A DNA stretch of 64,000 nt from Oceanibacterium hippocampi. Lineage in GTDB: Bacteria > Pseudomonadota > Alphaproteobacteria > Sneathiellales > Sneathiellaceae. How positions within the stretch are numbered: the first letter of the stretch is position 1; each line of letters opens with the position of its first letter. This document shows, piece after piece, positions 31,138-38,354 of the stretch. The translations under genes were made by a program, and so were the position numbers. The notes under the pieces are model-generated. The model saw nothing but the letters and a program-made list of their open reading frames with translations. It ran no database searches and had not been told where the DNA came from. The DNA is taken from contig NZ_FWFR01000005.1 of the NCBI RefSeq assembly GCF_900172325.1, positions 1 to 64,000 on the forward strand, in the 5' to 3' direction.

Positions 31138-32640
31138 CTAACCGAAGGCGCGGTTCCTGTCGCATTCCGCGACCGCGTCGGCGAGGCGGCGCATGGCGCT
31201 CGCGATGCTCTTCTCGGAGAGCGCGGCGTAACCGAACAGCAGCGTGTCGCGGACCCGCGGGTTGTCGGCGGTGATGAAGGCCCCGCCGGAGCCCGGCACA
31301 TAGATGCCGACGCCGCGGGCGGCCGACCGCCGTTCGATCTCGCGGGCGTCGCCGAAGCCGGCCGGCAGGCGAAGCGATAGATGCATGCCGCCGCGCATGC
31401 CCCGGATCTCCGCGCCGGGAAAGATCCCGGTCAGCGCCTCGACCAGCAGGTCCCGGCGGCGCTTGTAGATCGCCCGGATCCGGCGCAGGTGGCGCAGGAA
31501 GCCGCCCGACGTCATGAACTCCGCCATCGCCGCCTGTTCCAGCCATGCGTTGCCGTTGCTGGTCAGCGACTTCCATTCCCGGAGCGCGCCGGACAGCGTC
31601 GGCGGCGCGACGATGAAGCCCAGGCGGAGGCCGGCGGCGAGCGATTTCGAGAAGGTCCCGAGGTAAAGCACGCGGCCGCGGCCATCGAGGCCGCGCAGGG
31701 CGGTCAGCGGCGCCCCCTCGTAGCGAAAGTCGCCGTCGTAGTCGTCCTCGATTACGTAGCTGTCGGTCCGCTCGGCCCAGTCCAGCAGGTTCAGGCGCCG
31801 TTCCGGCGACAGCGTGACGCCGAGCGGATACTGATGCGATGGCGTGACATACAGGATGTTCCGCCGACCCGCCGGCAGGCGCGAGACGTCGATGCCGTCA
31901 TGGTCGACCGGGACGGGATGGGGCGTGAATCCGCAACTTTCGAACAGGAAGCGCGAGCCCTGGTAGCAGGGATCCTCGTGCACGAAGGTTCTCGAGAAAC
32001 CGGCCAGTGCGCGCGCGACCAGGTCGAGGCCGTCCTGCGAACCGTTGACGATGACGATGTCGTCGGCCCGGGCCGAGACACCGCGCGCCGGGCCGATATG
32101 TTCGGCAATGCCCTGCCGCAATTCACGCAGGCCCTGCGGGTCCTGGTACTCGGCCAGCCGGGCGCCGCCGTAGCGTACCTTGGCATCGAGGATCCGCCGC
32201 CACTCGTTGGCGGGGAAGGTCGCGGCGTCGACCCGGCCGATCCAGAAATCGTGCTCAAGCCGGCCGCGGTTCGGGCTGATCACGGTCTGCGCCCTGATCC
32301 CGCCCGTGACGGGATGAAGGCCGTCATTGTTGTCATTGGCGAGGGCGTCGCCGTCATCGGCGGCGGCGGTCGCGATTGCCATCGCCGTTTCGGGCAGGGT
32401 GGCGCTGACGAAGGTGCCGACATTGGGCCGGCTCTCGATATAGCCCTCGCTCCGCAGCTGCTCGTAGGCGAGCACGACGGTGTTGCGCGACACGCCGAGC
32501 TGTTCGCTCAGCGCGCGCGAGGCCGGTACCGGATCCCCGCTGCGCAGCTTGTTGTCGAGGATCAGCCGCCTGATCTGCTCGAACAACTGGCGTTGCAGCG
32601 TGCGCGGATCACTCGAACTGATCGCCAGCACGACCTGCAT
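31138..32640 (-). CDS. MocR-family regulator (GntR helix-turn-helix plus aminotransferase domain)
   Basis: A 500-residue protein. The winged helix (about 10-80) contains GDPVPASRALSEQLGVSRNTV and is linked to a class I aminotransferase-like domain (about 120-490) with the PLP lysine in GTFSKSLAAGLRLG. MocR proteins sense PLP or amino compounds and often control vitamin B6 or amine metabolism. ATG 32640 follows AGGGAGGGG; the TTG 18 bases upstream overlaps that site. It lies 84 bases downstream of haoB on the same strand, an unusual partner for haoAB. Confidence 0.9.
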   Translation of the reverse strand: MQVVLAISSSDPRTLQRQLFEQIRRLILDNKLRSGDPVPASRALSEQLGVSRNTVVLAYEQLRSEGYIESRPNVGTFVSATLPETAMAIATAAADDGDALANDNNDGLHPVTGGIRAQTVISPNRGRLEHDFWIGRVDAATFPANEWRRILDAKVRYGGARLAEYQDPQGLRELRQGIAEHIGPARGVSARADDIVIVNGSQDGLDLVARALAGFSRTFVHEDPCYQGSRFLFESCGFTPHPVPVDHDGIDVSRLPAGRRNILYVTPSHQYPLGVTLSPERRLNLLDWAERTDSYVIEDDYDGDFRYEGAPLTALRGLDGRGRVLYLGTFSKSLAAGLRLGFIVAPPTLSGALREWKSLTSNGNAWLEQAAMAEFMTSGGFLRHLRRIRAIYKRRRDLLVEALTGIFPGAEIRGMRGGMHLSLRLPAGFGDAREIERRSAARGVGIYVPGSGGAFITADNPRVRDTLLFGYAALSEKSIASAMRRLADAVAECDRNRAFG

Positions 32641-32724
32641 CTCGAGCCCCTCCCTCAAGGCGGATACTAGCCGAGTATCGCCGGCGGAATGGTACCACAG
32701 GGCCGGGAAGATCTGGGTCCGGAC

Positions 32725-33744
32725 CTATCCGATGGTGCCGGTGGCAAGCCGGTAGACCCAGTATCCGCCTTCCTGGAAAACCAGCGAGGCGTCGGGCACC
32801 TGGCCGAGGCGGGCCGAACTGAAGGGCAGCAACTGGCCGAGCAGGGTGGCGTTGCCGATCGTGTCGGCGAAATAGTAGGCCCTGAGCGCGTTGGCGTCGC
32901 GCCGGATCACCGCATAGGCGGCATAGCCTTCGTCGCGAACCCAGGTCTTCACCAGCTTGCTCGCGTCGTGGACATTGCCGGAGCCGGGGAAATCGCGGAG
33001 GCCGACGGAAAAGCGTTCCGGCGCGGCGACGCCGAGATCGAAGGCGTCGCGAACATGGAGGACGAGGTAGCTGTCCCGGCCCTCGGCCAGGTCGCGGAGA
33101 CGGGCGACGCCATCCGTCGCAGCGGCGCCGAGCGCCTCGACGAACGCGCTGAACAGCGCATCCGCCTGGCGGTCCGGTCCGGGGCGCCAGCGATCCTCTA
33201 TCCCGAGGATCGCCGGCCGGGCGCCGGTCCACGGGTCGGGCAGCCGCACGGTCGCGCGGTCGTCGGCGCCGGCGAGCGGGAAACGCGCCGGCAGCATCGC
33301 GGCCAGCCTGCCCGACAGCGCCGGCATGGCGTAGACGAGACTGTCCGCCGGCAGGTGCGTCCGGAGCGCCTCGACCAGCCGACGCTCCTCATCGACGGAA
33401 ATGTCGGATCGCAGCACCGGCTCGCCGATCTCGCTGGTCCAGCCGACGATCAGGTCCGGCCCGCCGTCCCGGCTCAGGACCTCGCCCCTGGCGACGACCT
33501 TGCCGCCGAAGGCGGTCTTCACGCTGACCGTCATCGGCGTCGCCCCGGGGACCGCCCCGGCGAGCGCCTGCGCGTCACCGGACGGCTGGGCCGCTTCGGC
33601 CATCTCGTAGACGTAGGGCGGCGGCGGATCCTCCGCCTGCAGGGCATAGACGGTGAGAATCCCGCCGGCGATCAGCATCGCCACACCGATCCCGGTCGCG
33701 AGACCGGGCGCGGTGCGGGATTCCGGGATGCCGGCGAGATCCAT
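32725..33744 (-). CDS. haoB: Hydroxylamine oxidation protein HaoB
   Basis: A 339-residue protein with one N-terminal membrane anchor (about 14-36) and a large periplasmic region, placed three bases after haoA. Length, anchor and the regions RLPDPWTGARPAILG, KTWVRDEGYAAYAV and YYFADTIGNATLLGQLLPFSS fit HaoB, the conserved companion encoded after haoA in ammonia and methane oxidisers. Its exact role is unknown; maturation of or electron transfer with HaoA has been proposed. Confidence 0.82.
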   Translation of the reverse strand: MDLAGIPESRTAPGLATGIGVAMLIAGGILTVYALQAEDPPPPYVYEMAEAAQPSGDAQALAGAVPGATPMTVSVKTAFGGKVVARGEVLSRDGGPDLIVGWTSEIGEPVLRSDISVDEERRLVEALRTHLPADSLVYAMPALSGRLAAMLPARFPLAGADDRATVRLPDPWTGARPAILGIEDRWRPGPDRQADALFSAFVEALGAAATDGVARLRDLAEGRDSYLVLHVRDAFDLGVAAPERFSVGLRDFPGSGNVHDASKLVKTWVRDEGYAAYAVIRRDANALRAYYFADTIGNATLLGQLLPFSSARLGQVPDASLVFQEGGYWVYRLATGTIG

Positions 33745-33747
33745 TGC

Positions 33748-35454
33748 TCAGTCCCGCCGGCGGCGGCGGATCGCCGGCAGCAGCAGGAGCGCGAGGCCGA
33801 ATCCCGCCAGCGCGACGCCGGCGCCGCCCGCGGCGGCCCGTTTCACGGGTGTGTCGAGATCGAGCAGCCCGCGCTTGTCGCCACCGGACTCCAGCATCTC
33901 GACGCGCTGCAGCAATGCCGCCTTCTCGCGCAGCTGCGTGTCGGCATCCTTGATCCGCGCCAGGCTGCGGATCAGGCGCGACCAGCCCTCCGAGTAGGTG
34001 AAGCCGCCCGGATGCACGTGGGCCAGGCCCTTGAAGTGCTTCATGACATGCTGTTCCCACATCTCGGCGAACTCGTAGTCGATGGCGGTCGGGAAGTTCC
34101 CGGACGAGAAGAACAGGCCGGCAAAGGCGCCCGGGCTGTCGGCATCGGGCTTCGGCGGCGCCGGGCGGTTGGTCGTCTGGCCAACCAGCAGCTTGTCCTC
34201 GTAGAGCCGGTTCATCACGCCGCGGGCTTCCTTGACGAGCTCGATGCCCTGCTTCGTGCCCTCGTCCATCATGTCGAGGTAGGCGCGGGCGAAGGACGGC
34301 GAATGGCAGTTGGAACAGGTCGTGACCCACGATTCCTTGCGGTCCTGGAACCATTCGTGGCCCAGGTTCTCGGCGATTTCCGGCTTCGGTTCGAAGCCCC
34401 AGCGCACCTTGCGGACCAGGTTGTGACCGTATTCGCCCTCATATTCCATGTGACAGGTCTGGCAGGTCGGGCCGGTCTGCCCGCCCGCGCCGAAGGCCGT
34501 CGAAAGCGGCTGCTGCCAATCCCAGTCATGGCCCTGCGTGGCATAGACAACGCCGTGCTTGGACATGCTGAAGGCTTCGAACTCGTTGTGATCGACGCCG
34601 TTGTGACAGGTCGAGCAGGTCTCCGGCTTGCGCGCCTCGGCGGCCGAGAACTCGTGGCGGGTATGGCAGGAATTGCAGGTGTTCTGCATGGTGTGGCAGA
34701 GCGAGCAGCCATCGGCGACCTCGCGCTGTTCCATGCCGGCCCAGATCGCGGTCTCGACGTTGGCCTGCCATGACAGGGCATGCGACGGCCGGCCGGCCGG
34801 CCATTGCTCCTGCGGCCAGGTGAGCGTGTCGCGCTCGGACTCGCGCTCGGCGAACTGCTGCACGTGGCACTGCCCGCAATCGGCCGCGTCGGGCATCTTG
34901 AGGTCGGCCTTGTGATTGCCCTTCAGCGCACCGACCCTCATGTGGCAGTCGATGCAGCCGACGTCATCGAGGTTCTGACCCTCGGGCAGCACGCCCATCG
35001 AATGCAGGTTCGCCTCGACCTGGTCGATGAGCTCCTTCTTGTAGGCGCGTGAATCCCCGGCCGGCAGGCCGCGGATCTCGTCCAGGTCGCCGTGCACGCT
35101 CTTCTGCCACGAATGGACCCAGCCGGGCGTCACGGTCGAATGGCATTCGACGCATTCCTCGCGGGTCGCCTCGAAATCCATGTCGGGCGCCACATAGAGC
35201 GTCTTCGGATCGAGATAGCGGGTGAACGGCGTCGGCTGCCAGAGCTCGCCGAACGCGCCCTTTCCGTGCCCCTTGCCGGGATCGTAGTAGCGCTTGATCA
35301 GCGCGCCGTAGAGATCCTTCGGTGGGGCGTCCCGGGTCAGACCGAGTGCCTCGTAGGTCTCGTCCGGGATGTCGGCGCCCGCCGGCGGCGAAGCGGCGAG
35401 CAGGAGCGGCAGGAAGAACATTCCGAAAAACAGGTGCAAGCAGTGGCGTAGCAT
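33748..35454 (-). CDS. haoA: Octaheme hydroxylamine oxidoreductase HaoA
   Basis: A 568-residue multiheme c-type cytochrome with a signal peptide (about 1-27, cleaved after PPAGA). Eight CxxCH sites start at Cys101, 167, 193, 250, 260, 280, 331 and 380, the HAO pattern. The fourth would carry the P460 catalytic heme. A Tyr at 487 (GGFTYSEGW) lies in the C-terminal region where HAO supplies the tyrosine cross-link, but alignment by eye is not decisive. A final helix (about 543-562) followed by RRRRRD should anchor it in the membrane. It oxidises hydroxylamine in the periplasm. No electron-accepting cytochrome c gene is in the window. Confidence 0.93.
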   Translation of the reverse strand: MLRHCLHLFFGMFFLPLLLAASPPAGADIPDETYEALGLTRDAPPKDLYGALIKRYYDPGKGHGKGAFGELWQPTPFTRYLDPKTLYVAPDMDFEATREECVECHSTVTPGWVHSWQKSVHGDLDEIRGLPAGDSRAYKKELIDQVEANLHSMGVLPEGQNLDDVGCIDCHMRVGALKGNHKADLKMPDAADCGQCHVQQFAERESERDTLTWPQEQWPAGRPSHALSWQANVETAIWAGMEQREVADGCSLCHTMQNTCNSCHTRHEFSAAEARKPETCSTCHNGVDHNEFEAFSMSKHGVVYATQGHDWDWQQPLSTAFGAGGQTGPTCQTCHMEYEGEYGHNLVRKVRWGFEPKPEIAENLGHEWFQDRKESWVTTCSNCHSPSFARAYLDMMDEGTKQGIELVKEARGVMNRLYEDKLLVGQTTNRPAPPKPDADSPGAFAGLFFSSGNFPTAIDYEFAEMWEQHVMKHFKGLAHVHPGGFTYSEGWSRLIRSLARIKDADTQLREKAALLQRVEMLESGGDKRGLLDLDTPVKRAAAGGAGVALAGFGLALLLLPAIRRRRRD

Positions 35455-35681
35455 GACGGCAGTCCGATCCGGCTGTTCGAACGAGCCTCAAGCATCGCAG
35501 GCCTCTTGTATAAGCGTAGGTCCATGTAATGGGAAAATCATGGAGCCGGATGTCGGTGACGACCGGTGCCGGTATCGCCGCACGCGCCGCTCAACCATTT
35601 GTGTCCTCCGAGGCATCGCACCGTGACTTTGACGGGTGGCCGGAACGGGATAAGACTGGTCGATAATCGACAGGGGTCCCG
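35455..35681. promoter_or_regulatory. Divergent promoter region between haoA and the LuxR-family gene
   Basis: 227 bases separate two divergent starts. No strong -35/-10 or -24/-12 pair could be read, but both the haoAB operon and the regulator must be transcribed from here. The regulator could bind here and control haoAB as well as its downstream operon. Confidence 0.5.
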
Positions 35682-38354
35682 GTGACGCGAATGCCGACAA
35701 GAGAAGACGATCTTCGGGTCGTTCCGCCGACCAAGTGCTGGCCGCCGGCCTGCCATATGCGACTGGTCGCCCGCGACCGGCTGTCCTCGGTGGCCGGGCG
35801 GCTCGACCGCCTGCGCCTGGTCTGCGTGACCGCCCCGGCCGGCAGCGGCAAGAGCACGCTGATGACCCAGTGGCACGGGATGCTGGCCGAGGGGGAGGCC
35901 GCCTGGCTGTCGCTGGAACGCGCCGACCGGGAACCGGCCAACTTCGCGGCCGCGCTCGCGGCGGCCCTGAAGGGCAGGGTTCCGTCGCTGGGCGCCGCCT
36001 TGCAGGCGATCCTGTCCTCGCCCGAGCCCGTGTTGCTCCGCCGTACCGTCGATCATGTCCTGGTCGAACTGGCGATGCACGACCGGCGTTTCGTGCTGAT
36101 GCTGGACGATGCCCATCACCTGATCGGCAGCGGGGCGGAAGAGGCGCTGGCCCGGCTGATCGCCCAGGCGCCGCCGTCGCTCACCGTCGTCGTCGGTTCG
36201 CGCGACCGGCTTTCGCTGCCGATTTCGCGGCTGCTGCTGAGCGGCAGCGCGCTTGAGATCGGCTGGGACGAGCTTCGCTTCACGGCCGGGGAGGCGGGAA
36301 TCCTGCTCAACGAGGCGGCCGGTGACGGTCTCGGCGCCGATATCGTGGACGTCGTGACGCGCCGCACCGAGGGGTGGGCGACCGGGCTCCAGCTCGCCGC
36401 GATGACACTCCGCCAGCGGCCCGACGGCGCCGACCTGCGCTCGCTGTCCGGCCGCAGCGTCGATGTCGCGAATTACCTGCTCGAGGACGTGTTCAGCGCG
36501 CTGGCCCCGTCCGACCGTGATTTCCTGATGAATACCTCGGTTCTCGACCGCTTCAGCGCCGGGCTGGCCGAGGCGGTGTCCGGCCGGGACGACGCGCGGG
36601 CGATCATCGAGCGGCTGGAGCACGGCAACCTGTTCCTGTTGCGGCTCGACGACCGGCGGGAGTGGTTCCGCTACCATCACCTGTTCCAGGAGTTCCTGCA
36701 GAGCCGGCTCGACGTCGCCCATCCGGGCCGGCGGGATGACCTCTATCGCCGTGCCGCGCACTGGTGCGAGGCCGCCGACCTGCTGCGGGAGGCGATGACC
36801 TATGCCCGGCGGGGCCGGCACATGGAGCACCTGGCCGACCTGCTGGAGCGGGCGGGTCGGCAGATGTTCCGCCATGGCGACTTCAAGTCGCTGCGCGACT
36901 GGCTTGCCGTCCTGCCGCCGGGAACCCTGCAAAACCGGCGCGAGCTGTGCGTTCTCGCCGGCTGGGCCCATGCCTATCTGGGCGAGATCGCGGCGGCGCG
37001 GACCTGCGCGGCGATGGCGGCGAGTAGCCTTGCGCCCGAGGACCGCGCGACGCGGGCGGAACTGGCGGTCATGCGCACGACATTCGGCGTGATCCAGGCG
37101 GACGAGCCGGAGTCGCACGACCTGCCGTCGAATGTCGTCGACCATCTGCCGTCCGACAAGCCGGCGCTGCTCGGCTTCGGCCATGTCGCCGTCGGTTACA
37201 CGCTTCGCGCGGAAGGCCGGCTCGACGATGCGCTGGCGGCGTTCGAGCGCGGCATCGCCATCACCGAGCGCCCGGAAACCGCCCTGGTCAACCTGCTGGC
37301 CCGCTTCAATATCGGCGCGCTGCTGGTGTTCATGGGACGTCCGGCCTCGGCCGAGGAGCGGCTGCGCCAATCGCTCGAGGTGGCCCGGGCACGCGGCTGG
37401 GACGAGAGCATCGGGGCCGGCTTTCTCAACGTGCAGCTCGGCATCGCGCTCCGCGAGCAGAACCGGCTGCGCGACAGCATCGCCGCGCTCGGCCGGGGCA
37501 TCGAACTGCTCGAGGCGGGCGAGGGCTATGGCTATCTCGGCGTCGGGCTGGCCGAGCGCGCCCGCAGCCATCGCGCCGCCGGCAACGGCAACGCCGCCGC
37601 CCAGGATCGCGACGCGGCGCGCCGCCTTGCCGACGAACGCGGGATCACGCGGGTCCGTTTCCGGGTCGATCTGCTGGACGCGCGGACCGCGCTCGGCGGC
37701 GGACGGCTGGACGAGGCGCTGGCCTGCCTGGAACAGTTGCGGAGCGGGCTGGTCCCGCCGTCGGACGACGGCGGCGTGCTCAACGAGAAATACGAGATCT
37801 TCCTCGTGCAATGGTGCCGGCTGCTGCATGGCCAGCTGCGCATGGCGGAAGTGGTCCGGGTCGCCGGACTCGGCGTCGGCAGTGCGCTGGCCGCCGGCCG
37901 GCACCGGAACGCGGTCGCCTTCCTGGTCCTCCAGGCGGCGGCCTGGAAGGGGCTTGGCGTTCCCGGCAAGGTTCGCGACAAGCTCGTGCGTGCGCTCGAG
38001 CTGGTTCGCGGCGAGGGCTGCGTGCGGCCGTTCCTTGCCGCCGGCACGACGCTGCTCGACGATCTCGCGGAGCTGGCCGGTGATCGCGCGCTGGCCGCTT
38101 CGGTGGTGCCGGTTCTCGCCGCCCTCGGCCGCCATTCGGAGGCGACAGACATCCCGATCCCGGTATTGCGATACCGCGAGACGCAGATCATCGGGCTGCT
38201 CACCCACGGCCTGCGCAACCGGGAGATCGGCGAGCGCCTGCGGATCTCCGAGGAAACCGTGAAATGGTATCTCAAGCAGCTCTACGAGAAGCTCGAGGTG
38301 CGCTCCCGGACCGAGGCCGTGCAGAAGGCTCGGGAGTACAACCTGCTCGCCTGA
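35682..38354 (+). CDS. MalT-type LuxR-family ATP-dependent transcriptional activator
   Basis: An 890-residue STAND regulator. The Walker A APAGSGKST lies near 51-59, Walker B-like VLMLDDAHH near 140, and a long helical TPR-like region (about 350-800) should bind the inducer. The C-terminal LuxR helix-turn-helix is about 825-885 (LRNREIGERLRISEETVKWYL). The start is GTG 35682 or ATG 35691. Such proteins oligomerise on ATP and inducer to activate nearby operons. It directly precedes the acyl-CoA ligase/ABC transporter operon and is divergent from haoAB. Confidence 0.9.
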   Translation: MTRMPTREDDLRVVPPTKCWPPACHMRLVARDRLSSVAGRLDRLRLVCVTAPAGSGKSTLMTQWHGMLAEGEAAWLSLERADREPANFAAALAAALKGRVPSLGAALQAILSSPEPVLLRRTVDHVLVELAMHDRRFVLMLDDAHHLIGSGAEEALARLIAQAPPSLTVVVGSRDRLSLPISRLLLSGSALEIGWDELRFTAGEAGILLNEAAGDGLGADIVDVVTRRTEGWATGLQLAAMTLRQRPDGADLRSLSGRSVDVANYLLEDVFSALAPSDRDFLMNTSVLDRFSAGLAEAVSGRDDARAIIERLEHGNLFLLRLDDRREWFRYHHLFQEFLQSRLDVAHPGRRDDLYRRAAHWCEAADLLREAMTYARRGRHMEHLADLLERAGRQMFRHGDFKSLRDWLAVLPPGTLQNRRELCVLAGWAHAYLGEIAAARTCAAMAASSLAPEDRATRAELAVMRTTFGVIQADEPESHDLPSNVVDHLPSDKPALLGFGHVAVGYTLRAEGRLDDALAAFERGIAITERPETALVNLLARFNIGALLVFMGRPASAEERLRQSLEVARARGWDESIGAGFLNVQLGIALREQNRLRDSIAALGRGIELLEAGEGYGYLGVGLAERARSHRAAGNGNAAAQDRDAARRLADERGITRVRFRVDLLDARTALGGGRLDEALACLEQLRSGLVPPSDDGGVLNEKYEIFLVQWCRLLHGQLRMAEVVRVAGLGVGSALAAGRHRNAVAFLVLQAAAWKGLGVPGKVRDKLVRALELVRGEGCVRPFLAAGTTLLDDLAELAGDRALAASVVPVLAALGRHSEATDIPIPVLRYRETQIIGLLTHGLRNREIGERLRISEETVKWYLKQLYEKLEVRSRTEAVQKAREYNLLA

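Follow-up and report, generated by a model that had tools for sequence, protein, structure and literature searches.

The stretch of DNA analysed here, a 64,000-nucleotide window on contig 11 of the Oceanibacterium hippocampi genome (4.83 Mb, 18 contigs, 99.41% complete), carries three genes in the order haoA-haoB-haoR on its minus strand, encoding an octaheme hydroxylamine oxidoreductase (HAO), the membrane-anchored HaoB and a MocR-family regulator, for which we propose the name HaoR (Table 1). The haoR start lies 67 bp beyond haoB, and a direct repeat, which is a candidate HaoR operator, precedes haoA. A sequence-only reading of the window had placed haoA and haoB among genes of organic-acid catabolism. 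The identities and exact coordinates of the two genes were borne out by the open reading frames (ORFs), by structure alignments and by the family model TIGR04392, whereas the heterotrophic neighbours proved to be only background, since, across the 80 named haoA loci that form our comparison set, the genes around haoA, haoB and haoR in the window do not recur next to haoA. That reading overlooked the conserved MocR regulator and the direct repeat, which tell more about the working of the system than the catabolic neighbours do.

Table 1. Coordinates of the genes and sites discussed, in the window and in the compared loci.
Feature	Location	Coordinates	Strand	Description
haoA	window	33748..35454	-	octaheme HAO of 568 aa with a signal peptide-like N-terminus and a hydrophobic C-terminal anchor
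Tyr487 codon of haoA	window	33994-33996	-	equivalent of the cross-link tyrosine
haoB	window	32725..33744	-	membrane-anchored HaoB, 339 aa
haoR (name proposed)	window	31138..32658	-	MocR-family regulator, GntR winged helix-turn-helix and aminotransferase-like PLP domain, 506 aa
K338 codon of haoR	window	31645-31647	-	PLP lysine
Candidate HaoR operator	window	35517..35547	-	GGCTCCA-N17-GGACCTA direct repeat with a period of 24 bp, located 63 bp before the ATG of haoA
MalT-like LuxR-family regulator gene	window	35682-38354		divergent from haoA
C554-family protein gene	L214	4846-6204	+	452 aa, another contig of the window genome
LVIVD-repeat ORF	L214	7390-11001	-	at least 1200 codons, several c-heme motifs
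Ruegeria pomeroyi hao cassette region	L121	9914-21491		cassette followed by ccm, hemA, truncated haemoglobin and cbb3 oxidase genes
Nitrosovibrio sp. Nv4 hao cluster	L164	9952-16321		haoA-haoB-cycA-cycB-mocR adjoining amoCAB
MocR-MOSC-rubredoxin fusion gene	L201	7865-10480	-	
MocR-MOSC-rubredoxin fusion gene	L202	2919-5582	+	
HaoR relative beside cupin protein	L215	8213-10924		double EutQ-like cupin
HaoR relative beside cupin protein	L216	8424-10790		double EutQ-like cupin

HaoA contains eight CxxCH motifs, and its residues 27-557 align with the Nitrosomonas europaea-type HAO structures 6m0p, 4fas and 1fgj at E-values of 3e-190 to 9e-190, those to the Kuenenia HAO-like proteins being about 1e-42 to 1e-47. 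In the structure alignment, Tyr487 corresponds to the cross-link tyrosine (Tyr467 in the N. europaea enzyme), a residue whose absence the sequence-only reading would have counted against its proposal; it is present here, and is invariant in the nine HaoA proteins aligned and in all 80 named loci. Because this tyrosine is present and the gene identities hold, hydroxylamine oxidation is the likely activity of HaoA. HaoB passes the haoB_nitrify model TIGR04392 with 247.1 bits, against a cut-off of 200. The closest HaoA proteins belong to a Hyphomicrobiales metagenome-assembled genome (MAG; 89% identity), two Mesorhizobium root isolates (85-86%) and a gammaproteobacterial Steroidobacteraceae MAG (80%).

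No match to the ammonia monooxygenase (AMO) and particulate methane monooxygenase (pMMO) family PF02461 was obtained in the whole window genome, with the Nitrosovibrio and Methylotuvimicrobium positive controls detected, so that the lack of amo and pmo genes remarked on earlier holds genome-wide. The lack of neighbouring c554 and cM552 genes also stands, haoA being the sole CxxCH-bearing ORF among the window ORFs of at least 90 codons. Searches of the genome for nirK and for c-type acceptors, which the same reading had recommended, gave no NirK above the TIGR02376 cut-off of 296, with two weak partial matches of 36 and 29 bits, and one protein of the C554 family (PF13435), encoded on another contig. 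HAO was absent from all 24 sister-genus genomes. Since the G+C content of haoA (0.665), haoB (0.715) and haoR (0.69) is near that of the window (0.654), composition is uninformative on horizontal transfer; the presence of the cassette in one genus, together with its closeness to sequences from other classes, suggests that it arrived by this route.

HaoR combines a GntR winged helix (PF00392) with an aminotransferase-like domain (PF00155), which in this family binds pyridoxal 5'-phosphate (PLP), and the best Foldseek rows for its predicted model are GabR and PdxR. We took its start as the TTG at 32658; translation may in fact begin at the conserved Met of codon 7 (32640). The PLP lysine, K338, aligns with the GabR lysine in the motif GTFSKSL and is retained in 40 of 42 members of the HaoR clade described below, in which the PLP-site residues Asp305, Tyr307 and Arg345 are at least 97% conserved. 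In GabR, Arg430 holds the carboxylate of the effector. At this position, which in our alignment is near a gap, the window HaoR has Ala and the clade has small residues, as would fit a ligand without a carboxylate.

A haoR relative is present in 32 of the 80 named haoA loci. Considering only the 34 loci with at least 2.5 kb of upstream and at least 5 kb of downstream sequence, haoR was found in 23 of 31 outside Nitrosomonas, Nitrosospira and Nitrosovibrio and in none of the three inside these genera; the eight well-flanked loci outside Nitrosomonadaceae without haoR are six methanotroph loci, L115 and L117. The gene directly follows haoB in Mesorhizobium, Roseovarius, the Steroidobacteraceae and Hyphomicrobiales MAGs and the Ruegeria pomeroyi megaplasmid, and it follows cycAB in L073, L074, L081, L084, L086, L090, L091 and L110. 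Elsewhere it lies upstream of haoA, either on the same strand (L060, L062, L064-L066 and L069) or divergently (L058, L061, L063 and L077). As its position varies among loci in this way, the link between haoA and haoR survives rearrangement. The identities of HaoA and HaoR also co-vary over 31 pairs (r 0.815, a value reached by none of 2000 permutations). PF02461 was not matched in any of the 32 named haoR-linked genomes, many of which are MAGs of uncertain completeness, in which a single absence is weak. Nitrosovibrio sp. Nv4 has one hao cluster that ends in a MocR gene and adjoins amoCAB, and another hao copy (L095) with no MocR gene within 10 kb.

In quick phylogenetic trees, built without bootstrap and with support given as SH-aLRT, the MocR proteins linked to haoA group in a single clade that excludes other MocR proteins, with a support of 100 (42, then 44 rows). 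When relatives from genomes without haoA were added, the clade comprised 46 proteins with a support of 85 and an unsettled order of first branches. A HaoR from an alphaproteobacterial pmoA genome (G552), of the same class as the window genome, groups with those of Methylocystis.

Upstream of haoA, all eight related loci that we read (the window and seven relatives) present a direct repeat of the form GGNCCYA-N17-GGNCYTA with a 24-bp period, a motif picked by eye. The pattern GGNYCYA-N17-GGNYCYA has a single match in the 4.83-Mb genome, which is the site before haoA, and the reversed pattern used as control has 58. A half-site matrix built from the eight loci was then run on 25 held-out mocR-linked loci (440 kb; hits of at least 12 bits), where 18 hits at the 24-bp spacing were obtained in 15 loci. 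Of these, 14 (in 12 loci) are within 350 bp of a listed haoA or haoR start, while the other four, in or close to the gap between haoB and cycA, are at -91 to +47 bp of a listed cycA start; any other spacing between 10 and 40 bp gave at most five near hits. The corresponding binomial value, 9e-13, overstates the independence of the held-out loci, which are partly related to each other. A looser repeat pattern gains L063, L080 and L120. MocR proteins often bind direct repeats, and that of TauR, CTGGACYTAA, is close to the HaoR half-site, according to the available parts of a MocR survey (PMC5320631), which also state that direct repeats are preferred by apo-PdxR and not by PLP-bound PdxR. A scan for sigma-70 promoters between 35400 and 35720 found none. 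Half-site pairs also show minor peaks at spacings of 34 and 35 bp, all of them close to haoA or haoR starts (L080, L120 and others), which perhaps reflect a third operator box.

We consider it moderately probable that haoA-haoB-haoR is an autonomous and inducible hydroxylamine-oxidation cassette, which probably moved horizontally. HaoA would be exported and loaded with eight c-hemes, and in its catalytic centre a heme would become cross-linked to the tyrosine. As the genome has no AMO of its own, the hydroxylamine would be external or incidental, produced by neighbours (ammonia oxidisers, anammox bacteria) or by side reactions, and we infer that the electrons would enter the general c-type pool instead of c554 and cM552. 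HaoR would bind the 24-bp-period repeat upstream of haoA and control the operon, including haoR itself. A classic reagent for removing PLP from lysine in oxime form, hydroxylamine would attack the PLP-lysine aldimine of HaoR in this manner; the resulting altered or apo form would activate haoAB, in a direct-repeat-binding state as with apo-PdxR. Detoxification and the gain of extra electrons are both possible roles. Several carriers are MAGs with the isolate names PRO, OFTM and AOB, which suggest an origin in nitrogen-removal reactors. More tentatively, and with rather less than even confidence, we propose that HaoR is a dedicated covalent hydroxylamine sensor, acting through the PLP oxime, that was retained alongside HAO in alpha-, beta- and gammaproteobacteria living on, or surviving, the hydroxylamine of others.

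Several observations weigh against these readings. Hydroxylamine as the signal is a proposal drawn from general PLP chemistry, and two of the 42 clade members (L081 and L084) carry Arg in place of the PLP lysine. The window has no such repeat before haoR itself, and three of 300 column-permuted matrices also attained 14 near hits; two of these three read GGCACTA, a variant half-site that matches the sites of other subclades, which suggests that the HaoR half-site may be broader than our matrix. Linkage is also incomplete: a search at an E-value of 1e-40 gave no MocR match in 18 of 19 Nitrosomonadaceae genomes, the clade MocR is missing from five of the six class-sample genomes with an aerobic-type HAO, and in three Methylocystis genomes searched the HaoR relative does not adjoin haoA. 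Conversely, a linked haoR occurs in two genomes with AMO or pMMO, G552 (pmoA) and G796 (amoA), which refutes a rule that haoR is found only where AMO is absent. In unbiased samples of 387 genomes from the class and 397 from the phylum, HaoR matches of at least 350 bits were found in five genomes, of which two have haoA (the window genome and G552) and three do not (G065, G319 and G537); these three and a Jannaschia plasmid (L122) refute a restriction of the clade to haoA genomes. In G065 and G319, which belong to one family, the relative is a MocR-MOSC-rubredoxin fusion, recognised with Pfam in the former and by eye in the latter. N-hydroxylated compounds are substrates of YcbX/mARC-type MOSC proteins, and the clade may also govern other N-hydroxyl chemistry. 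The relatives in G537 and, with a weaker match, G677 are beside a double EutQ-like cupin protein; close to the Jannaschia plasmid copy are genes for a cupin and an FAD oxidoreductase.

HaoR might control haoAB and yet read PLP status or an amino compound, as PdxR, TauR and GabR do, with hydroxylamine possibly acting indirectly through PLP depletion. All five MocR proteins tested, four of them clade members, pass the NCBIfam PdxR model NF052282 (425.7 bits for the window HaoR, with a cut-off of 320), the half-site resembles the one given for TauR in the accessible text on it, and the Ruegeria cassette runs into ccm genes and hemA, whose product is a PLP enzyme. However, the model is unspecific, since a background MocR of the sister genus (L134) also passes with 434 bits, and what the haoR neighbourhoods have in common is haoA, with no shared gene of pyridoxine or PLP biosynthesis or of amino-acid metabolism. 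The small residues at the GabR Arg430 position argue in the same direction, but PdxR-like backgrounds also have no arginine of the aspartate-aminotransferase type, so that the residues are compatible with PLP sensing as well; on balance we regard this explanation as unlikely.

It is a good deal less credible that haoR is a passenger that moves with haoAB by horizontal transfer and has no regulatory role. The spread of the system is patchy, with no HAO in the sister genus and the nearest HaoA proteins in Mesorhizobium, a Hyphomicrobiales MAG and a gammaproteobacterial MAG, but a passenger would not explain a linkage kept over many gene arrangements, nor a repeat that occurs, across loci, upstream of haoA, haoR and cycA. 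The possibility that HaoA works in the reductive direction on nitrite or hydroxylamine, as do the octaheme nitrite reductases, with which it shares the family model PF13447 and a common fold, is very improbable: the alignment scores (about 1e-190 to aerobic HAO versus about 1e-42 to the Kuenenia proteins), the tyrosine conserved in every named locus, from which the cross-link itself is predicted, and the presence of HaoB led us to reject it.

HaoA resembles Nitrosomonas HAO (1fgj/4fas/6m0p) in its eight CxxCH motifs, its cross-link tyrosine, the adjoining haoB and an identity of about 50% over the full length, whereas the window genome has no AMO and no adjacent c554 or cM552, and has an adjacent MocR regulator. 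A haoA-haoB pair is also found in methanotrophs (Methylocystis SC2), where, in the available part of PMC3794950, it is used for detoxification; these hosts produce hydroxylamine by pMMO, and in the three Methylocystis genomes searched the HaoR relative lies away from hao. The closest parallel in arrangement is on the megaplasmid of Ruegeria pomeroyi DSS-3 (NC_006569), where haoA (73%), haoB and the MocR gene (57%) are arranged as in the window and accompanied by the same direct repeat, the last gene being annotated merely as 'PLP-dependent aminotransferase family protein'. It differs in what follows: ccmF/G/H, hemA, ccmE, a truncated haemoglobin gene and cbb3 oxidase genes, the ccm genes forming a second cytochrome c maturation set, which suggests a respiratory use of the cassette in Ruegeria.

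As a regulator, HaoR is similar to PdxR, GabR and TauR, which, in the sections of PMC5320631 available, have a GntR winged helix-turn-helix, a fold-type I PLP domain and direct-repeat operators; it differs in its candidate target, a hydroxylamine oxidoreductase, and the word hydroxylamine is absent from the main text of that survey as available, its supplement aside. DnfR of the Alcaligenes dirammox cluster, a gene cluster unrelated to hao, is likewise a MocR protein governing genes of hydroxylamine metabolism, but, in the extracts of PMC12575085 at hand, it controls the diiron DnfABC and not HAO, and our comparison of it with HaoR is by description only. In Nitrosococcus oceani, a GntR-type gene (Noc0891) directly precedes haoA (Noc0892); this is taken from one table row of PMC3772326, the available text of which does not discuss the family or function of Noc0891. 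Apart from this row and the Alcaligenes dnf papers, which do not concern HAO, we found no link between HAO and MocR proteins in the open-licence PMC literature, a statement that excludes the supplement of PMC5320631 on cytochrome targets, where an unnamed prior sighting is possible. Neither the enzyme nor its occurrence in a non-nitrifier is new in kind; haoAB-haoR, as a self-contained unit with its repeat, is apparently a new regulatory module.

Hydroxylamine is a reactive intermediate that leaks from nitrification and anammox and is a precursor of NO and N2O, and a regulated HAO cassette without AMO would serve as a genetic marker of cross-feeding on hydroxylamine or of its detoxification, several carriers being cultured or known from reactor MAGs. 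Should HaoR respond to hydroxylamine, it would be a candidate biosensor part, in which PLP would serve as a reactive sensor rather than as a cofactor and a classic poison of PLP enzymes would itself be the signal.

The predicted model of HaoB (pLDDT 89.9) resembles the C-terminal globular domain of the STT3/PglB oligosaccharyltransferases, with VIA Z values of 12.4 to 3aag_A (178 residues, 4.4 Å) and 10.9 to 3vu0_A (144 residues, 3.6 Å), compared with values near 4 for unrelated structures. The best Foldseek rows are mostly of the STT3/PglB family, yet with E-values of 1.7e-3 or weaker, and Pfam found no STT3 family in 24 HaoB proteins. A profile of these 24 proteins meets STT3 exactly at the WWD motif (E 0.04; five of seven rows are STT3); in their alignment this motif is present in 15, matching the WWDYG of STT3, and is absent from the window HaoB and its subclade. 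As a lead, these similarities suggest that HaoB may bind peptides through a domain anchored in the membrane, with HaoA as a possible target.

Among the neighbouring genes, the MalT-like regulator gene shares its upstream region with haoA; we rejected it as a member of the system, as no relative was found at an E-value of 1e-10 in the 80 named loci. The PADLOC search yielded nothing beyond a weak helix-turn-helix match. On its separate contig, the gene of the C554-family protein is near a long ORF that combines LVIVD repeats with several c-heme motifs.

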